Assembly (NCBI GenBank): GCA_015178975.1
Contig: WHVD01000013.1
Location: 868,001 to 932,000, forward strand
Origin: Hysterangium stoloniferum
Taxonomy: Eukaryota > Basidiomycota > Agaricomycetes > Hysterangiales > Hysterangiaceae
Reading direction: 5' to 3'
Length of the DNA stretch: 64,000 nt
Position numbers and translations under genes: made by a program. Numbering within the stretch: the stretch's first letter is position 1; each line of letters begins with the position of its first letter. The notes beneath the pieces were generated by a model. The model saw only the letters and a list, made by a program, of their open reading frames with translations, searched no databases and was not told where the DNA came from. Positions 38,236 through 59,973 of the stretch are shown piece after piece.

Positions 38236-38368
38236 ATGATAAAGGGTGCACCTCCTGGAGGAAAGAGAGAGGGGATTCAATCAGAGTAGGACAAAGAGAA
38301 AAGGAAATGGGACATGCACTCACTGGTGGACAGAGAGAGGATGCCAATCAGAGGAGGATGGAGAGAGA
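38236..38368. repeat. GA-rich tandem repeat, part 1
   Basis: Imperfect units of roughly 50-110 bp built from CCTGGAGGAAAGAGAGAGG, TTCAATCAGAGTAGGA and GCCAATCAGAGGAGGA. It continues at 43438-43599 and 45535-45830, so the array was one block inside the pogo-like element before the copia element and the H1 nest split it. Confidence 0.75.
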
Positions 38369-38619
38369 TGTTAGAAATGGGAAAATACAATATCTATATG
38401 TGACACACTGTTATAAGACCCAGGTTTGCCATCAGTTATATAAGCTGTTATAAGAGCACAAGTTGGCATCATAAGTCCTTATATATATGTATATATAATC
38501 CATCATATAATACTAGACCATAGGTCCAGTAGCTCAGTGGTTAAGAGCACCTGCATATAAAGCCAGGAGGTCCTTGGTTCAATCCCAGGCTGGGTCAATT
38601 CTTTTCTATGCCTTTAACA
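38369..38619 (+). repeat. 251-bp terminal repeat T251 (left end of copia 1)
   Basis: Starts TGTTAGAAATGGG and ends TATGCCTTTAACA. The same 251-bp length as the solo copies at 49111, 50978, 52228 and 59322. Contains a tRNA-like Pol III domain at 38523-38597. Confidence 0.9.
38523..38597 (+). tRNA. tRNA-like Pol III domain inside the T251 repeat
   Basis: 75 nt fold as a cloverleaf: acceptor GGTCCAG/CTGGGTC, D-arm GCTC/GAGC, T-arm CTTGG/CCAGG. The A box TAGCTCAGTGG and B box GGTTCAATCC match consensus. The anticodon stem CCTGC/GC(C)AGG has a bulged C, and loop ATATAAA would give anticodon AUA. The bulge makes a functional tRNA doubtful. The same domain recurs at 49265-49339, 59476-59550 (+) and 51000-51074, 52250-52324 (-). 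Confidence 0.7.
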
Positions 38620-38861
38620 GGTTATGGGCCCCGCGCTCTAAGCGCTCTAGTACAGTATAACGTTTTGCAAACTCGCTTCTTTTGAGTAAGTTTCAGCCTA
38701 TACTTTTATATTCCCCTGCCAGGCCCAGCCTTATTGCTGTTGCTAGTAGGGAGGAACTTGTACGCCACTAAGGCTGAGTTTCCCTCGAGACTACCGTCTG
38801 GACCTCGAGTTAAATACCTTTTTTCTGAACTTCTTTGCGAGTTTGCTCTGTGTATACTACA

Positions 38862-41800
38862 ATGTCATCTTCCATCCCCCAATTCCCTAAACTCAACTCT
38901 CATAACTACAACACCTGGTCTGGTGAGATGCAGGCTTGGCTTCGTGCCCAGGGTGTCTGGCGCATTGTTGAGGCCACCTCCATTGCACCTGCACTATCCT
39001 CATCTCCCACAGAGGCCCAGCAAACTGCATTTGATGCTTGGGCTCTCAAGTTAGACAAAGCAGCAGGTTGGATGTACTTGAGTGTTGAGGATGATCAAAA
39101 GATTCATCTTAAAGGGATTGAGGGTGATCCGGTCAAGATGTGGACCAGTCTGTGTGATGTACACTTGCAGAAGCACCCTGGCATGCGTTTCAATGCGTAT
39201 GATGATCTCTTCTCCATCAGAAAGGAAGAGAATGAGAATTTGCAAACTCTGATGAATCGGGTGGATCTAGCCATCTGTGCCATCCAGGATCTGCGCCCAT
39301 TGAATTTTGATCTTGCCAAACTTGATGAGGAACTTGCATCAATGGCAATGATCAGGGCACTTCCTGAGCAGTTTGACAACTTTGCCTCTTCTCTCCTTCT
39401 GATGGACAAGCTGGACAAGGCTACTATCCAACAAGCTTTTGTCACAGAAGAGTCACAACGCCGTCATCGGGCTTCACAAGCTCCTGCAGTTGCATCTGCA
39501 CTTACTGTAAAGGGCAATGCATCCACTGCATTTCTCAAATGTACTTTCTGCTCTATGACCAACCATACTATGGACAAGTGTCATCGCTTCATCAAGATGC
39601 AGCAGGAAGCACAGGAGAGTGTCCGTACCAATCGTACCAAAGGAAAGAAGGCAAACGGGACTCAGGAGACAATGTCTCAGGACAATGTGGAATCTGCTGG
39701 AAATGCACGTCCTTCCTCCTCATCCGATTCCTCCACCCTGCAGAATGGTTCTGACTATGATTGGCTTGCTGATACAGGTGCTAGTAGTCATATGACTCCT
39801 CATAGTCATTGGCTGCGTAACTACACAGCATTATGTGTCCCAATCAAGTTAGCAGATCATACTGTTATCTACTCTGCAGGAGTTGGTTCTGTGGTATTCA
39901 ACCCAGTTATAAATGGAAGGAAATCGCGATCTGTGGAGCTTACAAGAGTTTTGCATGTACCACAACTGCGTAGTAACCTATTGTCTTGTCTCTATCTCAC
40001 AAGACACAAAGGACTACTCATACACATTGATCGAACAACCATGCATTTCAAACTCTCTGGCCAGACTTTGTTTACAGCCAGAGTTACTGCACAGAATGCA
40101 GGCATCCTAAATGGTGCCACTGCACCTATTATTGAGCAAGCTGGTGCTGCCTCCACTCTTCCCTTTGATATCAATCTCTGGCATCGCCGTCTTGGACATC
40201 ACAGCTATGCTGATGTCCAGAAGATGATCAGAGAAGGATTGGTGGTTGGCTTAAACCTTGACTCAAAGGAACAACCTGATCCTATCTGTGAACCTTGCCT
40301 TGCTGGCAAAATGACTGCCAATCCATTTCCTACCTCACCAAGTCAATCTCAGACACCACTTGAGCTTATTCATAGTGATCTACATGGACCACTTCCTGTG
40401 CAAACAACTGAGGGTTATCACTACTGGATAACCTTTATTGATGATTGCACCAAGTTGCGAGCTGTTCTGTTCTTGAAACGGAAGAGTGATGCATTTGAAG
40501 CATTCAGGAGATACAAAGCTTATGCTGAGAATCTTCTGGGTTGCAAGGTCAAAGCTCTGCAGGATGACAAAGGGGGGGAGTATATGTCAAATGCCTTTAT
40601 CAAGTTTACAGATGAATGTGGAATAGTACGCCGCCATACTACTCGCAATCGCCCTCAACAGAATGGAGTTGCAGAAAGAGCCAATCGCACTATGGCTGAT
40701 CATGTCACTGCCATGATGCATGAGGCGCGTATGCCTGCTTCTTTCTGGAACCATGCTGTGACATCCTATGTCTATGTATGGAATCGTCTGCCTACTGCAC
40801 CATTGCCTAAAACTACACCCTATGAGCAATGGTACAAGCAGAAACCAGATGTGAGCAACTTGCGAGTGTGGGGGTGTACTGCCTATGTTTACATTCAAAA
40901 GGACAAAAGGAAGTCACTTCAGTCACACATGGAGAAATGCCTCTTTCTAGGCTATCCTGTGGGATACAAAGGTTGGCAATTCTACAACCCTGTTACAAAG
41001 AAGTTTATCATCTCTGAACGGGCTGTATTTGATGAACGCCACTTTCCTGGTCTATCTACTACTGGACCAATGCCTAATATTAGGCTTTTCCCAAATATAC
41101 CAAACTCTGACATTCCTTTATTTGTGCCAGAAGTAGAGGGGGATAATGATATTTCTGTCCCTCCTACTCATATTCCTGCACCTCCTGCTTATATTCCTGC
41201 ACCTCCTGTTCAGATTCCTGCACCTCCTGCTCAGATTCCTGCACTTCCTGAACCCATTCAACTACCTCCTCCACCTGCACCAGAACCACAGCTTCGTCGC
41301 TCTCAGCGTGTTCCAAAGCAACCTGGTGAATGGTGGAAGGTACAACCAGCTCCAGCTCTAGCTGAAGATGATGATGAAGACATTGATTATGAGGAAGTAC
41401 AGTTTGTTGGAACAGCTTCAACTGCTGATCCACAAAACTACAAGCAGGCTATGAAAGGTGATGATGCAGATAAATGGCAAGAGGCTATAAATGCAGAATA
41501 CAATACACTGGTAGAAAACAAGACGTGGGAACTTGTTGACCTCCCAGTTGGTGCAAAGGCAATTGGTTCGGGTTGGGTGTTTAAAGTCAAACACAATGCA
41601 GATGGCACCATTGAGCGTTATAAAGCTCGTCTTGTTGCCAAAGGATACTCACAACGTCCTGGCATTGACTACAATGAAGTGTTTGCACCAACTTTTAGAC
41701 CTGCCACTCTGCGTTTGATTCTGGCCCTAGCTGCCATTGAAGACATGGACTTGCGCTCTGTTGACATTTCTGCTGCTTTCACCCATGGTGACCTTGATGA

Positions 41801-42986
41801 GACAATTTATATGAGACAACCTGAAGGTTTCCATCAAGGAGGTCCTAATAAGGTTCTCAGACTCTTGAAATCACTTTATGGTCTCAAGCAGGGATCTCGT
41901 CAATGGAACATCAAGTTACATGGTGCACTTACTGAAATGGAGTTCAAACGAATTGAATCTGATACCTCTGTTTACATTTATTCAAATGGAGAGGTGAAGA
42001 TCTTTGTACCCATTTACATTGATGATATTACATTTGCATCCAAGTCCACTCTTGCCATTGACAAAGCTGTCAAGCAATTGTCCCTGCATTTCAAATGCCG
42101 TGATCTTGGATCCACTGTTTATTTACTTGGTGTGGGAGTTAGCAGAGATCGCTCTAAGCGACTCCTTACTCTTGATCAGCGACAGTTTATTCTCAACATG
42201 CTTGAGCGTTATAAAATGTCTGATTGTCATCCAGTTCTCACACCTATGACACCTGGTACATCTCTTTCCAAAGAAATGGGTCCTGAGAATGCTGCAGAGG
42301 TGGATTTCATGCGTAGTGTTCCTTATCTCAGTGCTGTTGGGTCTTTACAATACCTGGCTACTATGACCCGTCCAGATATTGCTTATACTGTGTCCTACTT
42401 GGCACGTTTTAATGGCAATCCTGGACCAAAGCATTGGACAGCAGTGAAGCACTTGTTCAGATACCTAAAAGGTACACTGGAATACAAGTTGCATTACTCT
42501 GGTAAATGTGGCTCTGAATTATTCACCACATACACTGATGCTGCTCATGGTGATTGCATTGATTCTGGAAGATCCACTGGTGGTTATGTAACTATGATGG
42601 CTGGAGGTGCTATTGGCTGGAGTAGTAAACTACAAAGTATTGTCACACTTTCTACAACTGAAGCAGAATTTGTCTCTGCTGTAGAAGCTGGCAAGGAGAT
42701 TGCCTGGATGCGGCAAATCCTAGGTGAATTTGGCTACCAAGTTGATCAACCCTCCACTCTACACATTGACAACCAGTCTGCCATCAGTGTTGCTAAGAAC
42801 CCTGAGCATCATGGAAGGATGAAACATCTTGACCTGCGCTACTATTGGCTTAGGGATGCTGTAAATGCCAAGTGTATTGCTCCTTCCTATATTCCTACTG
42901 CAGAACAAATTGCAGATATTCTAACCAAGCCTCTATCTACTCCCAAGGTTCAATTTTGCCGCGATGGAATGGGTATAAGGATTTAG
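38862..42986 (+). CDS. gag-pol: Copia 1 Gag-Pol polyprotein (1374 aa)
   Basis: One frame with, in order: Gag (MSSSIPQFPKLNSHNYNTWS..., CCHC knuckle CTFCSMTNHTMDKC near residue 225), protease (DTGASSH), integrase (HHCC domain ending CEPCLAGK, then the DDE core), a proline-rich linker with PPTHIPAPPAYIPAPP repeats, reverse transcriptase (YIDDITFAS) and RNase H (TDAAHGD...GYV), ending with the usual copia C-terminus (ADILTKPLS). The domain order INT before RT defines Ty1/copia. Length and order are normal and no break was seen. The start is the ATG at 38862, in the ACAATGTC context. Confidence 0.93.
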   Translation: MSSSIPQFPKLNSHNYNTWSGEMQAWLRAQGVWRIVEATSIAPALSSSPTEAQQTAFDAWALKLDKAAGWMYLSVEDDQKIHLKGIEGDPVKMWTSLCDVHLQKHPGMRFNAYDDLFSIRKEENENLQTLMNRVDLAICAIQDLRPLNFDLAKLDEELASMAMIRALPEQFDNFASSLLLMDKLDKATIQQAFVTEESQRRHRASQAPAVASALTVKGNASTAFLKCTFCSMTNHTMDKCHRFIKMQQEAQESVRTNRTKGKKANGTQETMSQDNVESAGNARPSSSSDSSTLQNGSDYDWLADTGASSHMTPHSHWLRNYTALCVPIKLADHTVIYSAGVGSVVFNPVINGRKSRSVELTRVLHVPQLRSNLLSCLYLTRHKGLLIHIDRTTMHFKLSGQTLFTARVTAQNAGILNGATAPIIEQAGAASTLPFDINLWHRRLGHHSYADVQKMIREGLVVGLNLDSKEQPDPICEPCLAGKMTANPFPTSPSQSQTPLELIHSDLHGPLPVQTTEGYHYWITFIDDCTKLRAVLFLKRKSDAFEAFRRYKAYAENLLGCKVKALQDDKGGEYMSNAFIKFTDECGIVRRHTTRNRPQQNGVAERANRTMADHVTAMMHEARMPASFWNHAVTSYVYVWNRLPTAPLPKTTPYEQWYKQKPDVSNLRVWGCTAYVYIQKDKRKSLQSHMEKCLFLGYPVGYKGWQFYNPVTKKFIISERAVFDERHFPGLSTTGPMPNIRLFPNIPNSDIPLFVPEVEGDNDISVPPTHIPAPPAYIPAPPVQIPAPPAQIPALPEPIQLPPPPAPEPQLRRSQRVPKQPGEWWKVQPAPALAEDDDEDIDYEEVQFVGTASTADPQNYKQAMKGDDADKWQEAINAEYNTLVENKTWELVDLPVGAKAIGSGWVFKVKHNADGTIERYKARLVAKGYSQRPGIDYNEVFAPTFRPATLRLILALAAIEDMDLRSVDISAAFTHGDLDETIYMRQPEGFHQGGPNKVLRLLKSLYGLKQGSRQWNIKLHGALTEMEFKRIESDTSVYIYSNGEVKIFVPIYIDDITFASKSTLAIDKAVKQLSLHFKCRDLGSTVYLLGVGVSRDRSKRLLTLDQRQFILNMLERYKMSDCHPVLTPMTPGTSLSKEMGPENAAEVDFMRSVPYLSAVGSLQYLATMTRPDIAYTVSYLARFNGNPGPKHWTAVKHLFRYLKGTLEYKLHYSGKCGSELFTTYTDAAHGDCIDSGRSTGGYVTMMAGGAIGWSSKLQSIVTLSTTEAEFVSAVEAGKEIAWMRQILGEFGYQVDQPSTLHIDNQSAISVAKNPEHHGRMKHLDLRYYWLRDAVNAKCIAPSYIPTAEQIADILTKPLSTPKVQFCRDGMGIRI

Positions 42987-43087: not shown

Positions 43088-43437
43088 TGTTAAAACTGCC
43101 TCCACTGTCTCCAAAACCTCTCCAGAACCTTCTAGAACCTTCTAGAAGCTTCCAGCATGTTCCAGGGTATTCCCAGTTCATTTCCCATGACAGCTGTCAA
43201 TCAGCTGTCACTTTGTATTCCAGCTGTCAATCAGCTGTCAGTTTCCATTCAAGCTGTCAATCAGCTGTCACTTATGACAGCTGTCAACCAGCTGTCAACC
43301 AGCTGTCACTTATGACAGCTGACAAGCCTACTGATGTATAACATATATAAGCTTGTAGTTAGTGACCTGAATAGTAACAACTTTCCTCAGACTTGTGTGT
43401 GTCATGTGTCACAGTAAGTCACAGGTCACATTTAACA
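43088..43437 (+). repeat. C2 terminal repeat (350 bp), right end of copia 1
   Basis: Follows the purine tract AGATCAGGGGGGTC. Starts TGTTAAAACTGCC and ends CACATTTAACA. Contains repeated CAGCTGTCAATCAGCTGTCA units. Solo relatives at 52082-52675 and 59573-59973, both reverse. Confidence 0.88.
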
Positions 43438-43599
43438 AGAGAAGGAATGGGTACACACACAACCTGGAGGAAACAGAGAGGAGGACAGAGAGAGAGAGAG
43501 AGAAATGGTACACACACTCACTGCAGGAAAGAGAGGATGCCAATCAGAGGAGACAAGGAGAGAAGGAAATCAATCATACACACACCTCCTGGAGGAAAG
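43438..43599. repeat. GA-rich tandem repeat, part 2
   Basis: Continuation of the 38236-38368 array after the copia element, interrupted next by the H1 nest. Confidence 0.7.
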
Positions 43600-43735: not shown

Positions 43736-45027
43736 TGTGAAGGGTATGCATATATGCATAATTGGACTAAGGAATAATAGTTGGATTATAGTATTTTATT
43801 ATTTACTTTTTATTTTCTTCATTTACATTTGTAAAGGGTATGCATATATGCATACCTGGACTAAGGAATAATAGCTGGATTATAGTACTTTATTATTTAC
43901 CTTTTATTTTCTTTCTTTATATTCTTTCTATATTTCGAGCACACCTTGATTTTGTAGTTCGAAGCTTTGTGTATACGTATGGGCGCTCTCGGCGCCAAAA
44001 GAGACAGACAACCTTTACCCAGCAGACACCACCTCGTAAACGACCCAGACGTCGAATAGCGAGAGGTGTCAAGGGTAACGTTTCAACTACCTTTAAAGGT
44101 AGTATTCTCTTGCATACTAACGTACTTTGGACTCGAACCGCGAAGGTCGAGTTCCAATCTAAGGTCTTTGCGCTAGTCGACATTATAGTCGACTCGCGCT
44201 ATTATTTCTTTACTCTAGATATTCAGCTTCGCATTGATTATCTATTTTACATCTAGCTACGAGTTGTACCGTGAAGGTCAACTCTTTCATTCTTTCATTC
44301 TAGCCGTCAAGAGCAACTGTACAGTTGCTCTTGTGACGCATAGTGTGTCTTCTTACTAGCACAGCTTGTCTAGTAATCTACGGTATTGTACTGTACGGTC
44401 AATATCTGCTAATAGTAGTTGAATAGACACTATTCTTCGTATATCGAACGGTCAGAATCTATCGACTCTTCACAACATTCTTTCTATATTTCGAGCATAC
44501 CCTTATTTTGTAGTTTGAAGCTTTGTGTATACGTATGGGCGCTCTCGGCACCAAACGATAGACACTTTTTACCCCACAGACACCACCTCGTAAACGACCC
44601 AGACGTCGAATAGCGAGAGGTGTCAAGGGTAATGTCTCAACTACCTATAAAGGTAGTGTTCTCTCGCATACTCACAGACTTTGGACTCGAACCGCGAAGG
44701 TCGAGTTCCACTCTAAGGTCTTTGCGCCAGTCGACATTATAGTCGACTCGCGCTATTATCCCTTTACTTTAGATATTCGGCCTCTCGTTGATTATCTATC
44801 TTACATCTAGCTACGAGTTGTACCGTGAAGGTCAACTCTTTCATTCTTCATTCTAGCCATCAAGAGCAACTATACAGTTGCTCTTGTGACGCATTGCGTG
44901 TCTCCTTACTAGTATGGCCAGTCTAGTAATCTACGGTATTGTACTGAACGGTCAATACCTGCTAGTAGTAGTTGAATAAATGCTATACTTCGTATATTGA
45001 ACGGTCAGAATCTATCGACTCTTCACA
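43736..45027 (-). mobile_element. H1 repeat, middle level, reverse; CTACA duplication
   Basis: Pieces 43736-43829 and 44475-45027. Starts TGTGAAGGGTATGC and ends GACTCTTCACA; CTACA at 43731-43735 and 45028-45032. Confidence 0.92.
43830..44474 (-). mobile_element. H1 repeat, inner level, reverse (645 bp); ACATT duplication
   Basis: Starts TGTAAAGGGTATGC and ends GACTCTTCACA; ACATT at 43825-43829 and 44475-44479. Three nested copies with three perfect duplications give a clear order of insertion. Confidence 0.93.
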
Positions 45028-45534: not shown

Positions 45535-45830
45535 GAAAGAGAGAGGTGGTTCAATCAGAGTAGGATGAAGAGAGAAGGAAATAGGACACACACCTCCTGG
45601 TGGACAGAGAGAGAATGCCAATCAGCGGAGGGTGGAAAGAGAACAACCTGGAGGAAACAGAGAGGATGGAGAGAGAGAGAAAGAAAGGGTACATGCACTC
45701 ATTGCAGGAAAGAGAGAATGCCAATCAGAGGAGGATGAGGAGAGAGGGAAATCATACACACACCTCCTGGAGGAAAGAGAGAGGAGGTTCAATCAGTGTA
45801 GGATGAAGAGAGAAGGAAACAGGCCACCCT
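45535..45830. repeat. GA-rich tandem repeat, part 3
   Basis: At least two long imperfect units (CACCTCCTGG(A/T)GGA..., AATGCCAATCAG...GAGG). Short ORFs here are by-products of the repeat. Confidence 0.75.
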
Positions 45831-49046: not shown

Positions 49047-49664
49047 GTGCCCCCCAGGTTGAAGAGCTATGTCAAAGAAGATGTCGAAGGACGCTTGGAA
49101 CTCCTCCCCATGTTAGAAATGGGAAAATACAATATCTATATGTGACAGACTGTTATAAGACCCAGGTTTGCCATCAGTTATATAAACTGTTATAAGAGCA
49201 CAAGTTGGCATCATAAGTCCATATATATATGTATATATAATCCATCATATAATACTAGACTATAGGTCCAGTAGCTCAGTGGTTAAGAGCACCTGCATAT
49301 AAAGCCAGGAGGTCCTTGGTTCAATCCCAGGCTGGGTCAATTCTTTTCTATGCCTTTAACACCCCATGCGTCCTGCGATGAACCCCCAAGGTGTAGGATA
49401 GCGTTGCCCCAGGTGAGATGCTTGGCACGAAAGGAAAGAGCGATGTCCTCCCGCCTCGAAGCGTCATTGGCGGATGTCAACCCATCTAGTTTTTGGATCG
49501 ATGAGACCCAATGACCGTAGGCCTTCTGGCGCGTTTGAATTATGGTGCGAACGCAATCAGTGGAAACGTCAGTTATACGGGCAATGAGAGGGGGTCGAGG
49601 GTGTAGTGATGGCGGGGTAGGAGTGATGAGCGGTGTGGAGCTCATGTCTCCCCCAGAGGGGATT
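49047..49664 (-). CDS. Unrecognised ORF, copy 1, cut at both ends
   Basis: Minus-strand frame with GHWVSSIQKLDGLTSANDAS, REDIALSFRAKHLTWGNAIL and HGEEFQASFDIFFDIALQPG, proline-rich near its start (TPLITPTPPSLHP). A T251 repeat interrupts it (49111-49361), gypsy C truncates it at 49665 and H2 at 49046. The second copy (62915-63386 with 63861-64000) extends further upstream. The preserved reading frame in both copies suggests a real protein, perhaps part of an element or a multicopy gene. Family not recognised. Confidence 0.45.
49111..49361 (+). mobile_element. T251 solo repeat with tRNA-like domain; perfect CCCCA duplication
   Basis: TGTTAGAAATGGG...CCTTTAACA, 251 bp; CCCCA at 49106-49110 and 49362-49366. 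tRNA-like domain at 49265-49339 (+), identical over A and B boxes to the other copies. Confidence 0.93.
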
Positions 49665-50108: not shown

Positions 50109-52081
50109 ATGTCTCTGCCTCCAGAGCTCGAGCAACGCTTACAGGGCATGGAACAGAACGCCCAAGACAACATCAAGGCTCTCACGGACCTTATCACCCA
50201 ACTTCAACTCACCGTCAGCAATCTCGCCAACTCTACATCCTCCTCTTCCTCAGCTGCACCTGCTACCCTCCCTCTACACCCAATTGCCCAGCCTACACCA
50301 TCTGTCGATTCGTCGGCTCGGTCGACACATCACCTGAAAGGTTCGAAACCAAGCGACTTTGACAGTAATAGAGACAGTGGCCGTAACTTCCTACACTCGT
50401 GCTACACCTACATGATGCTATGTCCCGAAGACTTCGCGGATGACAACACGCGTATTCTTTGGGTCTTGACCTTCATGAAAACCGGTCGAGCTGCAACTTG
50501 GGCAAGCGCAATTCGAAGCGGAATTCTACCCGCAGTTTGAACAGGAGGCCGCCGCCAGTCGACTCAATTCCACGGCGTATTTTCAGGGTACCAGGCATAT
50601 CGACCTTTACATCGACGAATTTCGAGAAATGGTGCGTAAGGCAGAGTACACCGGTGCCCCCGTGGCCATGGCGTTCAGAGCAGGTCTGAACCACAGCGTC
50701 GAGCGACAAGTCGCGACCATGACGGTCGGTCGACCAGGCAATGGTGACCTCGACGGCTGGTTTGAGACCGCGCGCATCGCAGCGCAAGCGCAGACGGCCA
50801 GCGACACTTTCCAGCAGTTGCTCCAGCGTCGAAACTTACCTTCGAGAACACCGGTCATTTCGTCGACGACCGGATCGCATTCGCACTCGATCCCCACACC
50901 CCCTCGCGTCAACTACGCACCGCTGCCCCCTGGACCTCCCTTCCAAACACCGTCGATGCAACGGGGATCCGCAGTCATGTTAAAGGCATAGAAAAGAACT
51001 GACCCAGCCTGGGATTGAACCAAGGACCTCCTGGCTTTATATGCAGGTGCTCTTAACCACTGAGCTACTGGACCTATAGTCTAGTATTATATGATGGATT
51101 ATATATACATATATATAAGGACTTATGATGCCAACTTGTGCTCTTATAACAGTTTATATAACTGATGGCAAACCTGGGTCTTATAACAGTCTGTCACATA
51201 TAGATATTGTATTTTCCCATTTCTAACAAGTCGGAATCGTGCCTATGCAAGTGGACCGGACTCGTCGGACCCAGCAACGCATCCCTCTCAATACCTGTCG
51301 TAGGTGTGGACAGGTGGGTCATTGGGCACGCGATTGTCCAGAGATTAGGGAAATCCTCCGTTTCCTAGCAGAAGACCCAGACGACCTGTTGGCCTTCACG
51401 CAAGATATATTGGCATTAGAGGATGCAGGCCATATTTCCAATATGGACAAGGAGTCACCCCCATTGGGACAGTCGGTGGAACAGGGTTTTCCCCCCAGCA
51501 ACGAGTGAAGGATGTGCCCTCGTTGCTTATTCATGACCAACTTCACAGTGTAATGATAGATAAGATAGAGCCCCAATACACTCCTCCTACTCATGCTGAA
51601 ACTGTGAAACCAATAGTCGTATCTAATCTCCCAAAACCCTACCTCCGTCTCCCGAAGTGGGAGCGGAGATTGCCACCCACTTACATCATATGTTCAACCC
51701 CCTCGATCAATTCCTTGTCCTTGCCGATTCAGATTCAGGCAACAGACACTGCTGAGATCCATGCCCTGAGTGCTCTTTTAGATTGTGGTGCTACAGGACT
51801 ATTCATTGACAGGGACTTTGTTAAAAGGAAGCGCCTCACCACTCGTTCCCTCACTCGTCCAATTCCAGTCCTCAATGTTGATGGCACTCACAATGAGGCA
51901 GGTGCTATCATGGAAGTAGTTGACCTCATCCTACATTATAAAGATCATTATGAGCGTGCTGTCTTTGCAGTCACTAGTTTGGGTCACCACAATATGCTTC
52001 TTGGATTCACCTGGCTGCGACAGCACAACCCAGAGGTAGATTGGTCAACAGGCAAGGTCACCATGAGTCGATGCCCATCTC
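50109..52081 (+). mobile_element. gag: Gypsy C gag and protease region, broken
   Basis: Gag begins MSLPPELEQRLQGMEQNAQ at 50109 with a coiled coil and Ser-rich linker. A capsid-like region follows (FLHSCYTYMMLCPEDFAD..., YIDEFREMVRKAEYTG...GLNHSVERQV). A CCHC knuckle CRRCGQVGHWARDC lies at about 51294-51335 and a protease with DCGATG...HNMLLGFTWL at 51780-52040. A T251 repeat (50978-51228) sits inside. Fossil. Confidence 0.85.
50978..51228 (-). mobile_element. T251 solo repeat, reverse, AGTCA/AGTCG flanks
   Basis: 251 bp, flanks AGTCA (50973-50977) and AGTCG (51229-51233). tRNA-like domain at 51000-51074 (-). Inserted in the gag of gypsy C. Confidence 0.92.
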
Positions 52082-52675
52082 TGTTAAATGTGACCTGTGA
52101 CTTACTGTGACACATGACACACTCAAGTCTGAGGAAAGTTGTTACTATTCAGGTCACTAACTACAAGCTTATATATGTTATACATCAGTAGGCTTGTCAG
52201 CTGTCAAAAGTGACAGCTGGTTGACAGTGTTAAAGGCATAGAAAAGAATTGACCCAGCCTGGGATTGAACCAAGGACCTCCTGGCTTTATATGCAGGTGC
52301 TCTTAACCACTGAGCTACTGGACCTATAGTCTAGTATTATATGATGGATTATATATACATATATATAAGGACTTATGTTGCCAACTTGTGCTCTTATAAC
52401 AGTTTATATAACTGATGGCAAACCTGGGTCTTATAACAGTCTGTCACATATAGATATTGTATTTTCCCATTTCTAACAGACAGCTGTCAGAAGTGACAGC
52501 TGATTGACAGCTTGAATGGAAACTGACAGCTGATTGACAGCTGGAATACAAAGTGACAGCTGATTGACAGCTGTCATGGGAAATGAACTGGAAATACTCT
52601 GGAACATGCTGGAAGCTTCTAGAAGGTTCTAGAAGGTTCCAGAAGGTCTTGGAGACAGTGGAGGCAGTTTTAACA
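52082..52675 (-). mobile_element. C2 solo terminal repeat, reverse, carrying a T251 repeat
   Basis: Starts TGTTAAATGTGACC and ends GCAGTTTTAACA; flanks ATCTC and ATCCC (one change). About 338 bp after removing the nested T251 and its duplication. Inserted in gypsy C. Confidence 0.88.
52228..52478 (-). mobile_element. T251 solo repeat, reverse; perfect GACAG duplication
   Basis: 251 bp; GACAG at 52223-52227 and 52479-52483. tRNA-like domain at 52250-52324 (-). Confidence 0.93.
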
Positions 52676-53088: not shown

Positions 53089-56000
53089 CTATGCTAGTCC
53101 CAGTAGTTTTCGTAAGTATTCTACCTTTGGCTTAGCCAATGGTTTTGTCAATAAATCAGCAGGCATCTCTGAAGTAGGGAGATGAGCAACTTTGATCTTC
53201 CCACTATCAACTTCCTGCCTTAACCAATATGTTCTCAAATCCAGATGCTTCATACGGCCATGATGTTCAGGATCTCTGGCAACTGCAATAGAAGATTGGT
53301 TGTTAAGATACAAAGTGGATGCAGTCTTTTGAGGATATCCCAATTCCTCAAATAAGTTTCGCAACCATAGCACTTCCTGACCAGCTGACACTGCTGCAAT
53401 ATACTCTGCTTCAGTAGTAGAGAGAGTTACAATAGTCTGGAGTTTGCTCTGCCAGCTAATGGCTCCAGTACCCATCTTAACCACATATGCATCAGTAGAT
53501 TTTCCAGTCGACTTATCACCTCCATGGTCAGCATCTGAATAAGACACAAACAATTCCCTGTCATTACTAGGGCCAAAGGTCAAGCCCAAGTCAAGGGTGC
53601 CTTTGAGATATCGAAAGAGATGTTGTACTGCTAGCCAATGAGCCTTTCCTGGATTGTGATTAAATCTGGCTAATACTCCAACAGTATAGGCAATGTCTGG
53701 ACGAGTGGCAACAGCCAAATACATAAGAGAACCAACAGCATGGATGTATGGAATGTCCTTCATGTATGCAATCTCTTCAGGAGACACTGGAGCCTGGTCT
53801 TTACTCAATTTTGAGTTAGGTATCATAGGTGTACCAATGGGATTGCAGTCAGCAAGACCATAACGCTGTAACATGTCCAAGATGTATTGACGCTGTGATA
53901 GAGTAATAGTACGCTTTGTCCTGTCTCTTTCAATGCCAACACCTAACAAGTAAGAAGTAGGACCAAGATCATGCAATTTGAAGTGGCTCTTTAGATCATC
54001 TTTGAGCTTTTTGATAGCCTCCTTGGATTTAGATGCAATAGTCATGTCATCTACAAATACTGGTATAATGACTTTGACATCACCCTTTTGGAAGACCCAA
54101 ATGCTATGATCGCATAGCACTTGTTTGAAACCCAAACTGAGCAGGACAGCATTCAACTTCTTGTGCCAGATACGAGGTGACTGGTGTAAACCATATAGTC
54201 CTTTCAGAAGAAGTAAGAACTCATCACGAGCACCTTGGTGAAAACCTTCAGGCTGCTGCAAGTATACTTCCTCTTCAAGTTCACCATTCAAGAATGCAGA
54301 GGAGATATCTACACTCTCAAGTTCCATGTCCTCCAGTGCAGCCAATGCTAGGACAGCACGCAAAGTGGCCCATTTGGCAGTAGGAGCAAAGGTATCAGTG
54401 AAGTCAAACCCTGGTCGTTGTGCATAGCCTTTTGCAACAAGACGAGCTTTGAACTTGTCAATTGACCCATCCTTCTTATGCTTGATCACAAACACCCAAC
54501 GGCAGCCAATAGCTTTACGACCCTCAGGTAGTTTAGCAAGGCGAAAAGTGCCATTTTCAAGCAGGGATTGCATTTCTGCATATGCAGCATCATACCACTT
54601 GTCAGCATCAGGACTTTGTAAGGCCTCTTTGAGAGTTCTCGGTGCATCATCATGAGCACTGGCTTTGTAGGCAAACTCAAAGGCTTCATCCACACCAATG
54701 TAAAGATCTCCCTCACTGGCAGCTAGGGCTTCTTCCTCAGACTCAACTGGAGGAGGAGAATGTAGTGGAGAATCCTCTGCCTCATCACTGGACTCAACTA
54801 CAGGAGTAGATTCTCTATAGTTGTGGATGTGAGCAGGGTCAACTTGCCAGAAACGCTTAGGAGGAACTCTGTTTCTGGGTGGATTGCGACGTGGTTGAGG
54901 AGGAGGACTCGGTGAACGTTCAGAATGTTCAGAATTAGAATCAGAGTTGGAACTAGGACCAGGAGGCAAAGCATTATTCTGACCATCTCCCACCGGATTT
55001 GGTTCCTGTGGAGCTCCCACCTGATTAGGCTGGGCTCCCACCTGAATAGACCTAGAGGGTCCAGGAATAAACAAATCAATAAATTGTGGAGTATCAGGAA
55101 GAATATCAGGAGCAGTAGGAGTAGAAGGTATGGCAGGTTTAGACAAGCCTGGTAAGACTCTCTCATCAAAGACAGCATTATTACTGATAATAGTCTTCTT
55201 AGTCAAGGGATTGTAAAACATCCAACCCTTATAATCTGGAGGATATCCAATAAAGACACATTTCTGTGTATGAGAGCCAAGTCCAATACGTTGATCCTTC
55301 TGTACATGCACATAAGCAGTACAGCCAAATACCCTAAGATGTGATACTTCTGGTTTCCTACTATGCCAGACAGTATAAGGCACAGAATGCTTAAGAGCAG
55401 TGGTAGGTGAGCAGTTGCGCACATGAGTAATGGCAATGACAGCATGTCCCCAGAATGAGGGAGGGAGGTGGGATTCAGCCATAATTGAAGTAGCCCCTTC
55501 TTCCAATGTTCTGTTGAAGCGTTCAGCAACCCCATTCTGATGTGGTTCATTCCGCACAGTATGCTGCCGGCTGATGCCAGCAATGGAAAGGAAGGTATCA
55601 AACTCCTTAGACATATATTCTCCACCCTTGTCATCTCTGAATATCTTGATCTTCTGACCAAGCAAGTTCTCCACTTTAGCCTTATATTGCTTAAATGCCT
55701 GAAAGGCATCACTCTTATTTTTGAGTAATGCAATCGAAGCATAGCGTGAGGCATCATCAATGAAAGTGATCCAGTAGCGAAACCCTTCCACAGTTTGTGT
55801 AGGCAAGGGACCATGAACATCACTGTGAATGAGTGCAAGTGGTTTAGTATAGCGTGTTGTTGCTATTTTATTAATCACTCTGTTCTGTTTTCCAGCCAAA
55901 CAAGGTTCACAAATAGGATCAGGAGACGTGTGAGAGTCAATCTTTATCCCACCAACCAAATCACCTTTGAGGAGCTTCTGGATATCGGCATGATTGAGAT

Positions 56001-56627
56001 GATCAAAGCGACGATGCCAAAGTGTGGAGTCCAAGGGACAGGTTGTAACAAGACCCGCATAATCCGTCATAGGTACTGTCATTCCATCCAAATAGGCCTG
56101 GTTATGTTCATTGACTGTGGCAGTGAAACGCAAGACCTTTCTCAAATAGAAAGACATGGTGGAATGAAAGATAGAGACACGGAAATTCTTTCTCTTTGTC
56201 AAATACAAGATGGAGAGGAGGTTACTTGTGAGATGGGGAACATGGAGAACCCTTTCAAACTCTATTATTACATTTCCATTCCCTTTAGGCTTAAACCGCA
56301 CTGCTCCTATCCTTGCAGACATAACTATTTGTCCATTTGCAACTTGGATAGGTGTTTGAAACGGGGTATAACTTGAAAACCAATGACGATGGGGAGTCAT
56401 GTGCGAAGAAGCACCTGTGTCAGCAGTCCAGTCAGAACTAGCATTGACAAGGAGAGCACAAGATGGATCGGTAGAGTCAGGGATAGAAACACTTGCATTT
56501 CCAGCACTCTCTGGTTTCTTCTCCTCTGATACCTTGTCAGATGCATTAGCTTTGTCAGCTTTAGCAGTCTTTCTTTCTTTATACTCCTTTTTCTTCTGCT
56601 CAACTTTGGCCTTTGCCTGTTTCTGTG
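53089..56627 (-). CDS. gag-pol: Copia 2 Gag-Pol polyprotein, partial (lacks most of Gag)
   Basis: An open frame covering the Lys-rich Gag tail (KQAKAKVEQKKKEYKERK), protease (DTGASSH), integrase (CEPCLAGK zinc domain, then DDE core), a Pro/Ser-rich linker, reverse transcriptase with an FVDD-type catalytic box, and RNase H, ending ADLLTKPLAKPK. The order INT-RT places it in Ty1/copia. It is clearly related to copia 1 but well diverged. The upstream frame runs into an H1 repeat and is not original. Confidence 0.9.
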
Positions 56628-57265
56628 TGTGAAGAGTGGTGGATTCTGACCACTCTATATACGAAGAATAGTGTTTATTCAACTACTATTAGAGAGTATT
56701 GACCGTCAGTACAATACTATAGACTACTAGACTGTTAGTACTAGTATAAGAACGCACTGCACGCCTCAAGAGCAACTGTATAGTTGCTCGTGACGGCTTA
56801 GAACAGTAAGATAACGAGTTGACCTTTTACGGTACAACTAGTAGCTAGAAATAAGAAAGATACTCAGCTAAAGACTGAGTGTCTAGGATAGAGTATTAGT
56901 AGTGTGAGTCGACTACGGTGTCGACGAGCGCAAAGTCTTGAAAGCGGAACTCGACCTTAGCGGTTCGAGTTCAAAAGGCTATTAGTAGACTAGAGAATGC
57001 TACCTTTATGGTAGCTGAGATACTACCCTTGACACCTCTCGTTATTCGACGTCTGAGTCGTTACGAAGTGGTGTCTGCTGGGTAAAAAGTTGTCTCTATT
57101 TAGCGCTGAGAGCGCCCATAGATATACACAAGACTTCGAACTAAGAAATACGGGTATGCTCGAAGATCTAGAGAGTTAGGGAAAAAGAGTAAGAACTAAA
57201 TAATATAATACTATAATATATGTATTATTCCACAGTCCAATCATGATATATGCATACCCTTCACA
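56628..57265 (+). mobile_element. H1 solo terminal repeat (638 bp) at the end of copia 2
   Basis: TGTGAAGAGTGGTGG...ACCCTTCACA. Flanks CTGTG and GTTCT differ: left is copia 2, right is H3 sequence, so a rearrangement joined them. Confidence 0.9.
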
Positions 57266-59321: not shown

Positions 59322-59973
59322 TGTTAGAAATGGGAAAATACAATATCTATATGTGACAGACTGTTATAAGACCCAGGCTTGCCATCAGTTATATAAACTG
59401 TTATAAGAGCACAAGTTGGCATCACAAGTCCTTATATATATGTATATATAATCCATCATATAATACTAGACTATAGGTCCAGTAGCTCAGTGGTTAAGAG
59501 CACCTGCATATAAAGCCAGGAGGTCCTTGGTTCAATCCCAGGCTGGGTCAATTCTTTTCTATGCCTTTAACATATTAAATGTGACCTGTGACTTACTGTG
59601 ACACGTGACACACACAAGTCTGAGGAAAGTTGTTACTATTCAGGTCACTAACTACAAGCTTATATATGTTATACATCAGTAGGCTTGTCAGCTGTCATAA
59701 GTGACAGCTGATTGACAGCTGGAATACAAAGTGACAGCTGATTGACAGCTGGAATACAAAGTGACAGCTGATTGACAGCTGGAATACAAAGTGACAGCTG
59801 ATTGACAGCTGGAATACAAAGTGACAGCTGATTGACAGCTGGAATACAAAGTGACAGCTGATTGACAGCTGTCATGGGAAATGAACTGGGAATACCCTGG
59901 AACATGCTGGAAGCTTCTAGAAGCTTCTAGAAGGTTCCAGAAGGTTTTGAAGACAGTGGAGGCAGTTTTAACA
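59322..59973. mobile_element. Composite of T251 (forward) joined to C2 (reverse), shared GGATG duplication
   Basis: T251 at 59322-59572 is followed with no gap by reverse C2 at 59573-59973. GGATG is present once on each outer side (59317-59321 and 59974-59978) and absent at the junction. The pair therefore integrated as one unit, or recombined precisely. tRNA-like domain at 59476-59550 (+). Confidence 0.85.
59700..59872. repeat. 30-bp tandem repeat in C2 (GTGACAGCTGATTGACAGCT + GGAATACAAA)
   Basis: Five to six near-identical 30-bp units. Other C2 copies have fewer and more varied units, so this is a variable-number repeat. A repetitive ORF across it is a by-product. Confidence 0.9.

Follow-up and report, generated by a model that had tools for sequence, protein, structure and literature searches.

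A 251-bp repeat with a tRNA-like domain

The window, by which we mean the whole analysed stretch of 64,000 nucleotides of the Hysterangium stoloniferum genome (contig WHVD01000013.1), contains five copies of a 251-bp unit, which are 98.0–100% identical in a BLASTN search with 38369-38619 as the query (Table 1). All five start with TGTTAG and end with TTAACA. At positions 155-229 each holds a 75-nt tRNA-like domain, which is detected both by ARAGORN, under the label tRNA-Tyr(ata), and by the Rfam model RF00005 (48.6 bits for each of the five domains against a gathering score of 29). The domain is called tRNA-like because of the covariance model and ARAGORN rather than a free-energy fold: its cloverleaf is absent by minimum free energy folding alone (z -0.30). 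Three solo copies are flanked by 5-bp target duplications, two of them perfect (CCCCA and GACAG) and one matching at four of five positions (CGACT/TGACT). The solo copy at 52228 is located within a copia LTR, and an inverted copia LTR adjoins the one at 59322. The copy at 38369 is followed directly by a primer-binding site, GGTTATGGGCCCCG, and then by a long copia frame. The five copies with TG...CA ends, the domain with A and B boxes in every copy, the three duplications and the copy abutting the primer site of a copia element had all been described in the initial annotation and are confirmed here. A domain search of the copia frame, done in three pieces, has revealed Retrotran_gag_2, Pol_BBD, gag_pre-integrs, SH3_retrovirus and RVT_2, with rve below its curated cut-off.

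Table 1. Helenus-type and copia features of the window.
Feature	Position	Strand	Remarks
Left target duplication, AGAGA	38364..38368		Purine-rich surroundings
Helenus-type LTR, 251 bp, left end of chimeric copia	38369..38619	+	BLASTN, ARAGORN, RF00005
tRNA-like domain of left LTR	38523-38597	+	A box 38530-38540, B box 38576-38586
T4 run in Helenus LTR			Starts at LTR position 234
copia primer-binding site	38620..38636	+	17 nt, 14 of them common to the Helenus interior
copia frame	38829..42986	+	1385 aa, uninterrupted stop to stop
copia's own LTR, right end of chimera	43088..43437	+	350 bp, directly after purine tract
Right target duplication, AGAGA	43438..43442
Solo Helenus LTR	49111..49361	+	Duplication CCCCA/CCCCA; tRNA-like domain 49265-49339
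Solo Helenus LTR	50978..51228	-	Duplication 4/5, CGACT/TGACT; tRNA-like domain 51000-51074
Solo Helenus LTR	52228..52478	-	Duplication CTGTC/CTGTC (GACAG on +); tRNA-like domain 52250-52324
Solo Helenus LTR	59322..59572	+	No duplication (GGATG/TATTA); tRNA-like domain 59476-59550

Two further features of the window were seen. Positions 43921-45027 comprise a direct repeat of about 554 bp, whose two copies are 90-92% alike and are followed by an apparent inverted copy; their minus strand carries GGTTCGAGTCC, which resembles the B-box consensus, and the region gave no Rfam match at the gathering score and no ARAGORN match. On the minus strand, 53089-56682 is a second long open frame of 1197 aa from stop to stop, copia-like by eye and unlike the frame at 38829.

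The repeat as the LTR of a Helenus-type TRIM

Searching the genome (111 Mb in 554 contigs) gave at least 64 matches to the 251-bp unit (40 of 318 candidates scored), and among the matches listed numerous ones are paired, 66 or 67 bp apart. Such pairs form a two-LTR element of 251 + 66/67 + 251 bp (about 568 bp) with a non-coding interior, which starts with GGTTATGGGCCCCG and ends with a purine tract, CAGGGGAAG, before the 3′ LTR. Perfect 5-bp duplications surround eight of the 13 pairs compared, three of which belong to a single tandem duplication of 5.4 kb in C543 (two of these are among the five pairs without duplication), and 13 of 21 solo LTRs. The initial annotation had taken the unit for an LTR and had suggested a genome-wide search for paired copies; the two-LTR copies bear this out, and the contrary outcome that it envisaged, a unit never paired around an interior and behaving like a SINE, is not what the genome contains. 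A tRNA-derived SINE, with which a domain carrying A and B boxes would also agree, has a negligible chance of being the correct reading and is ruled out by the two-LTR copies, as two direct copies surround a primer site and a purine tract, the ends are fixed, 5-bp duplications and solo copies occur, and there is no A-rich tail.

The element thus has the properties by which a TRIM is recognized: direct LTRs around a short interior within a total of less than 1000 bp, a primer-binding site and a purine tract at the two ends of the interior, and a target duplication of constant length, 5 bp. TRIMs whose LTR includes a tRNA-like sequence have been named Helenus and described from fungi (rusts, Agaricus, Coprinopsis and Amylostereum), animals and one plant (Kojima, 2024, PMC10886601), so that the statement of the initial annotation that no fungal example had been described is wrong; its analogy to Cassandra is one that the same paper also draws. 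In the present element the tRNA-like sequence in the LTR has A and B boxes at LTR positions 162-172 and 208-218, and the features of fungal Helenus families, namely an anticodon-loop primer, a 5-bp duplication and a copia-type partner, are likewise found, the partner being indicated by the chimeras described below. The 251-bp repeat is therefore the LTR of a Helenus-type TRIM and not a SINE.

Tandem arrangements were also observed. A head-to-tail array of alternating Helenus LTRs and interiors is seen in the sequence at C534:47908-49976, another at C534:335643-336663 was judged from the 318-bp spacing of its interiors, and C543:266163-282864 consists of about three tandem repeats of the 5.4-kb unit, a copia element with Helenus in its left LTR.

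Primer sites and a second TRIM family

A pattern search for the anticodon arm of initiator tRNA found four places, one of which was retrieved and is a tRNA-Met(cat) gene according to ARAGORN. In the anticodon arm of this gene, a stretch of 14 contiguous nucleotides is complementary to the Helenus interior and one of 17 to the copia primer site. Across the LTR end and the primer site, Helenus and copia have 21 identical nucleotides.

The same primer site, here with 15 complementary nucleotides, occurs in a second TRIM family, L115 (C16:165770-166360), which has a 128-bp LTR and a 155-bp interior and recurs in tandem every 283 bp. Its LTR contains a tRNA-Ile(tat)-like domain at LTR positions 35-106, preceded by just 34 bp, and at the junction the family is identical to copia over 26 nucleotides, against 21 for Helenus.

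A putative promoter in the Helenus LTR

Among 27 distinct LTR sequences from 57 ungapped copies, neither the A box nor the B box has a variable site. Over the whole tRNA-like domain 4 of 75 sites are variable, against 25 of 176 in the rest of the LTR (p = 0.052), which makes the evidence for sequence constraint on the domain borderline. The boxes were located with the general A- and B-box consensus. The consensus given for Helenus agrees with it (PMC10886601).

The boxes, the T4 run and the short leader of L115 fit a putative transcription by Pol III. Against the proposed read-through, the T4 run, four bases past the domain, could end Pol III transcripts within the 5′ LTR. It is rather unlikely, though it deserves to be taken seriously, that Pol II drives the LTR and that the tRNA-like domain is no promoter. 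TATATA, at LTR positions 112 and 122, precedes the domain by some 30 bp, as Pol II would suggest; however, a TATA at such a distance also fits the tRNA genes of some yeasts. In addition, L115 offers little room before its domain, and the boxes of Helenus are invariable.

The window copia element is a chimera

An ordinary copia element has the same LTR at both ends. The element in the window has the 251-bp Helenus LTR on its left and, on its right, a 350-bp copia LTR that differs from it except at the ends. When the 5′ ends of copia elements were compared (30 examined of the 40 matches listed), 28 of 30 carried copia's own LTR, one of them (L060) with only its last 99 bp, and two carried the Helenus LTR. 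The 251-bp repeat can therefore be rejected as copia's own LTR, as which the initial annotation had presented it. The window copia is a chimera of a Helenus left LTR and a copia right LTR; the presence of the repeat on it is an LTR swap, and the repeat itself belongs to a separate mini-element.

Taken alone, the AGAGA duplication around this chimera is weak evidence for a single integration because the site is purine-rich. If the flanks are joined with one AGAGA removed, they align without a gap with related repeats at 45668-45787 and with copies in C543:249548-252798; in the related repeat at 45535-45765 there is a 16-bp gap just to the right of the joined flanks.

Inverted, palindrome-like copia ends were noticed at L046/L060 (C35:966169-967578), C35:3316-4250, C109:13450-14006 and C514:362221-362779. 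In these an LTR lies directly against a partial inverted LTR or an inverted 5′ interior, which looks like the product of fold-back or self-integration.

Chimeric junctions throughout the genome

Is the window copia an isolated case? Pattern counts over the whole genome found six junctions of a Helenus LTR with a copia interior (up to three mismatches) and 17 of the reciprocal kind, a copia LTR with a Helenus interior (class B; up to two mismatches). On the purine-tract side there were no reciprocal junctions of either kind in a whole-genome pattern count at up to three mismatches. Unmixed junctions number at least 48 for copia and 61 for the Helenus LTR with its own primer site (up to one mismatch). 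The copia-LTR pattern gave 65 places, 17 with a Helenus and 48 with a copia interior; 46 of the latter have two mismatches, the others being C88:156501 and C533:889765, and 48 is a lower bound because a copia interior alone costs two mismatches in that pattern. For the Helenus LTR, the best 100 of 142 places by mismatch were considered, and the 67 with at most one mismatch were used, six of them being the copia chimeras. The 17 class B and 61 Helenus-LTR junctions together make a denominator of 78, whose members are not all independent, since several lie in tandem arrays.

The 23 chimeric junctions represent 20 loci, of which 15 gave readable sequence on both outer sides. The 5-bp flanks match in 11 of these 15, against none of 210 mismatched pairings of left and right flanks. 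Eight of the 11 duplications are in unremarkable sequence (C109 AAAGA, C182 TTACA, C35:945k ACGCG, C108 CCTGG, C441+ CTGTC, C514:401k GATTT, C514:409k ATCCA and, in a composite, C259 ATCAC). The other three are weak, being in low-complexity sequence: AGAGA in the window, among purine-rich repeats; TTTAT at C59, where the LTR, with the end AATA, extends 2 bp further than predicted; and TTTTT at the composite C2, where the LTR stops 1 bp before the expected place. A duplication is absent at C14, C514:299k, C543:251k and C68, and some of these four chimeras may result from later recombination. The loci outside the 15 are C35:1081k, C256, C441-, C543:297k and C534:341k, the last of which counts among the 17 junctions but not the 15 loci, as the copia body that precedes it has the copia LTR in common with it. 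Position and last bases were used to assign the Helenus LTR in eight simple class B loci (C35:945k, C59, C68, C108, C441+, C514:401k, C514:409k and C543:297k) as well as on the right of C2.

The chimeric loci seem to have been integrated as chimeras, because 11 of 15 pairs of flanks match and none of the mispaired ones do. Assembly errors, which would not restore matching 5-bp flanks, can be rejected for most of them.

Five chimeric copia LTRs that were compared in full range from 308 to 349 bp and are nearest to three different ordinary copia LTRs, one of which is common to C182 and C534 and another to C514:299k and C543:251k. The interiors at class B junctions fall into at least three variants. 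The chimeras are likely to have several origins, though not one for each locus.

Two composite elements, C259:29110-34009 and C2:477284-482106, each lie within one 5-bp duplication. The order is copia LTR, Helenus interior, Helenus LTR, copia interior and copia LTR in C259, and Helenus LTR, copia interior, copia LTR, Helenus interior and Helenus LTR in C2, with the bodies placed from junctions and spacing.

L115 and the specificity of the exchange

If a common primer site were enough, any TRIM with this site should swap LTRs with copia. This prediction failed on L115. The whole-genome pattern count found no copia LTR before an L115 interior, and this zero, with 49 L115 junctions taken, differs from the 17 of 78 for Helenus (Fisher p = 0.0002, in a comparison where the junctions are not all independent and the mismatch limits of the searches are unequal). 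The 49 junctions are those with at most one mismatch to a pattern of the L115 LTR before a copia or Helenus interior. All have exactly one mismatch, as L115's own interior predicts, and the 14 of 49 that were read letter by letter are all its own; there is no exact match to that pattern genome-wide, while the remaining 35 of 49 could hide a chimera with one mismatch in the LTR. A shared primer site or homology is thus not sufficient, because L115 has no copia-LTR junction despite its 26 identical nucleotides. The simplest additional condition is copying in the same particle, and activity at a different time is an alternative one.

How the chimeras may arise

The explanation that we consider probable is that a Helenus-type TRIM with a tRNA-derived promoter is copied in trans by a copia element sharing its primer, and that chimeras are produced by intermolecular plus-strand transfer. 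Onto the observed anatomy, shared primer site, 5-bp duplications and reciprocal junctions it would build the following process. Helenus would be transcribed by Pol III from its tRNA-like promoter; the transcript would read through the T4 run of the 5′ LTR and terminate at the corresponding run in the 3′ LTR, which would make the R region approximately equivalent to the tRNA-like domain. copia would copy Helenus in trans, both being primed by the same initiator-tRNA half-molecule, and the two RNAs would be reverse-transcribed in one particle, a step constrained by the existence of the chimeras. Plus-strand strong-stop DNA, consisting of an LTR and the primer site copied from the tRNA, would sometimes pair with the minus strand of the other element, which would be possible because both elements carry the same 14 nucleotides templated by the same tRNA. 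Extension would yield a linear cDNA with the donor LTR on the left and the element's own LTR on the right, and integrase would insert this chimeric cDNA, creating the usual 5-bp duplication. One product of such a transfer would be the window copia, and Helenus with a copia left LTR would be the commoner reciprocal.

Reverse transcription normally leaves both LTRs of one element identical. Two kinds of LTR within one duplication therefore imply a step late in cDNA synthesis. A foreign left LTR with an own right LTR fits the transfer, and is seen in both directions, while the opposite arrangement is not seen. These patterns point to Helenus and copia being copied together. The helper LTR is on 17 of 78 Helenus 5′ junctions, and the parasite LTR is on six copia 5′ junctions against at least 48 with copia's own; we lean slightly towards the view that reverse transcription in one particle with intermolecular plus-strand transfer is routine rather than rare.

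Several other origins have to be weighed. The least improbable of them, still an unlikely one, is that host repair recombines finished linear Helenus and copia cDNAs before integration. Such a process would also yield duplications and would fit the composites C2 and C259. However, repair would have to act on 21 nucleotides of homology, the lack of chimeras in a TRIM with 26 would be left unexplained, and strand transfer at the primer site is already obligatory in reverse transcription.

A little less probable is that one or a few ancestral chimeras, composed of a copia LTR, a Helenus interior and a Helenus LTR, have spread by themselves. A primer-side variant, CCCCATTCAGC, common to the class B loci C59, C441- and C514:299k could be a trace of such spreading, as could the two pairs of chimeric copia LTRs with the same nearest neighbour. 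Against it are the number of class B interior variants, the differing lengths and three different nearest relatives of the copia LTRs, and the existence of the reciprocal class with a Helenus LTR before a copia interior; moreover, according to the established retroviral scheme, LTRs without a common R should not support first strand transfer.

It is improbable too that Helenus and copia copies already integrated have undergone ectopic crossover within their 21 identical bases. The block needed for this exists, and the absence of duplications from four of the 15 loci is what a crossover would produce. A crossover would join the flanks of two different loci and separate the duplications, yet most flanks match, which already contradicts it for most of the 11 duplicated loci, the four duplication-free ones being excepted; nor does it account for L115, whose block shared with copia is longer. 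For gene conversion, homology beyond the limits of the element would be required. The explanation that we prefer remains a plus-strand transfer from the cDNA of one element to that of the other.

Relation to known systems

LTR swapping between autonomous and non-autonomous elements has reportedly been found in soybean by Du and colleagues in 2010, judging from a title. Template switching, composite insertions and LTR exchange are mentioned in the accessible portions of several papers (PMC10886601, PMC5668417, PMC9744471, PMC11302176, PMC7215508, PMC1950507). In the literature searched, which was opened only in smaller part, we found no report of a TRIM and its helper with two unrelated LTRs in one duplication.

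Known Helenus families resemble the present one in being short elements (TRIMp3) that have an LTR tRNA-like sequence with A and B boxes, 5-bp duplications and solo LTRs; the fungal families mostly use an anticodon-loop primer, with tRNA-iMet dominant, and copia is their presumed mobilizer (PMC10886601). The present family differs in that its partner is indicated by reciprocal LTR-swapped chimeras, and it is likened to Helenus by structure rather than by family sequence. A term search of the available text of PMC10886601 gave no mention of chimeras, hybrids, mosaics, template switch or strand transfer. Cassandra likewise has a small RNA gene with a Pol III promoter in a TRIM LTR and forms tandem arrays (PMC7215508), but the gene is for 5S rRNA rather than a tRNA, the hosts are plants and no autonomous partner is indicated in what PMC10886601 says of it.

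The complex insertions of Triticeae (Sabot and Schulman, 2007, PMC1950507) are similar in that elements were fused during reverse transcription and one duplication surrounds the whole, and the composites C2 and C259 resemble them. They differ in having three LTRs with matching outer ones, whereas the simple chimeras described here have two LTRs from two families and the switch at the primer site. In HIV-1, second strand transfer is reported to be generally intramolecular, and intermolecular transfer gives discordant LTRs (PMC5651808). Discordant proviruses, whose LTRs differ in content, would share with the present chimeras the step at which they arise, a plus-strand transfer at the primer site from one co-packaged template to another; the difference is that there the partners are two genomes of one virus, while here a parasite and a helper with different LTRs are involved, at 17 of 78 junctions. 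A tRNA-bearing fungal TRIM is thus of an already known kind, while for LTR-swapped hybrids of Helenus and copia no description was found.

Implications

A helper is usually assigned to a non-autonomous element on the strength of a common primer site and further brief sequence resemblances, and a wheat study considered the partner difficult to determine without experimental data (PMC9744471). LTR-swapped chimeras with duplications point to the partner from the genome sequence alone, and a search for them is applicable wherever a genome contains TRIMs, be they Helenus, Cassandra or others. If the proposed mechanism is true, strand transfer, generally intramolecular in HIV-1 (PMC5651808), would often be intermolecular here, insertions with two unrelated LTRs in one duplication would be a readable record of pairs of helper and parasite, and LTR identity would be unusable for dating such chimeric copies. 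If the Pol III reading is right, the chimeras also suggest that particles of a Pol II retrotransposon RNA are open to a transcript made by Pol III.
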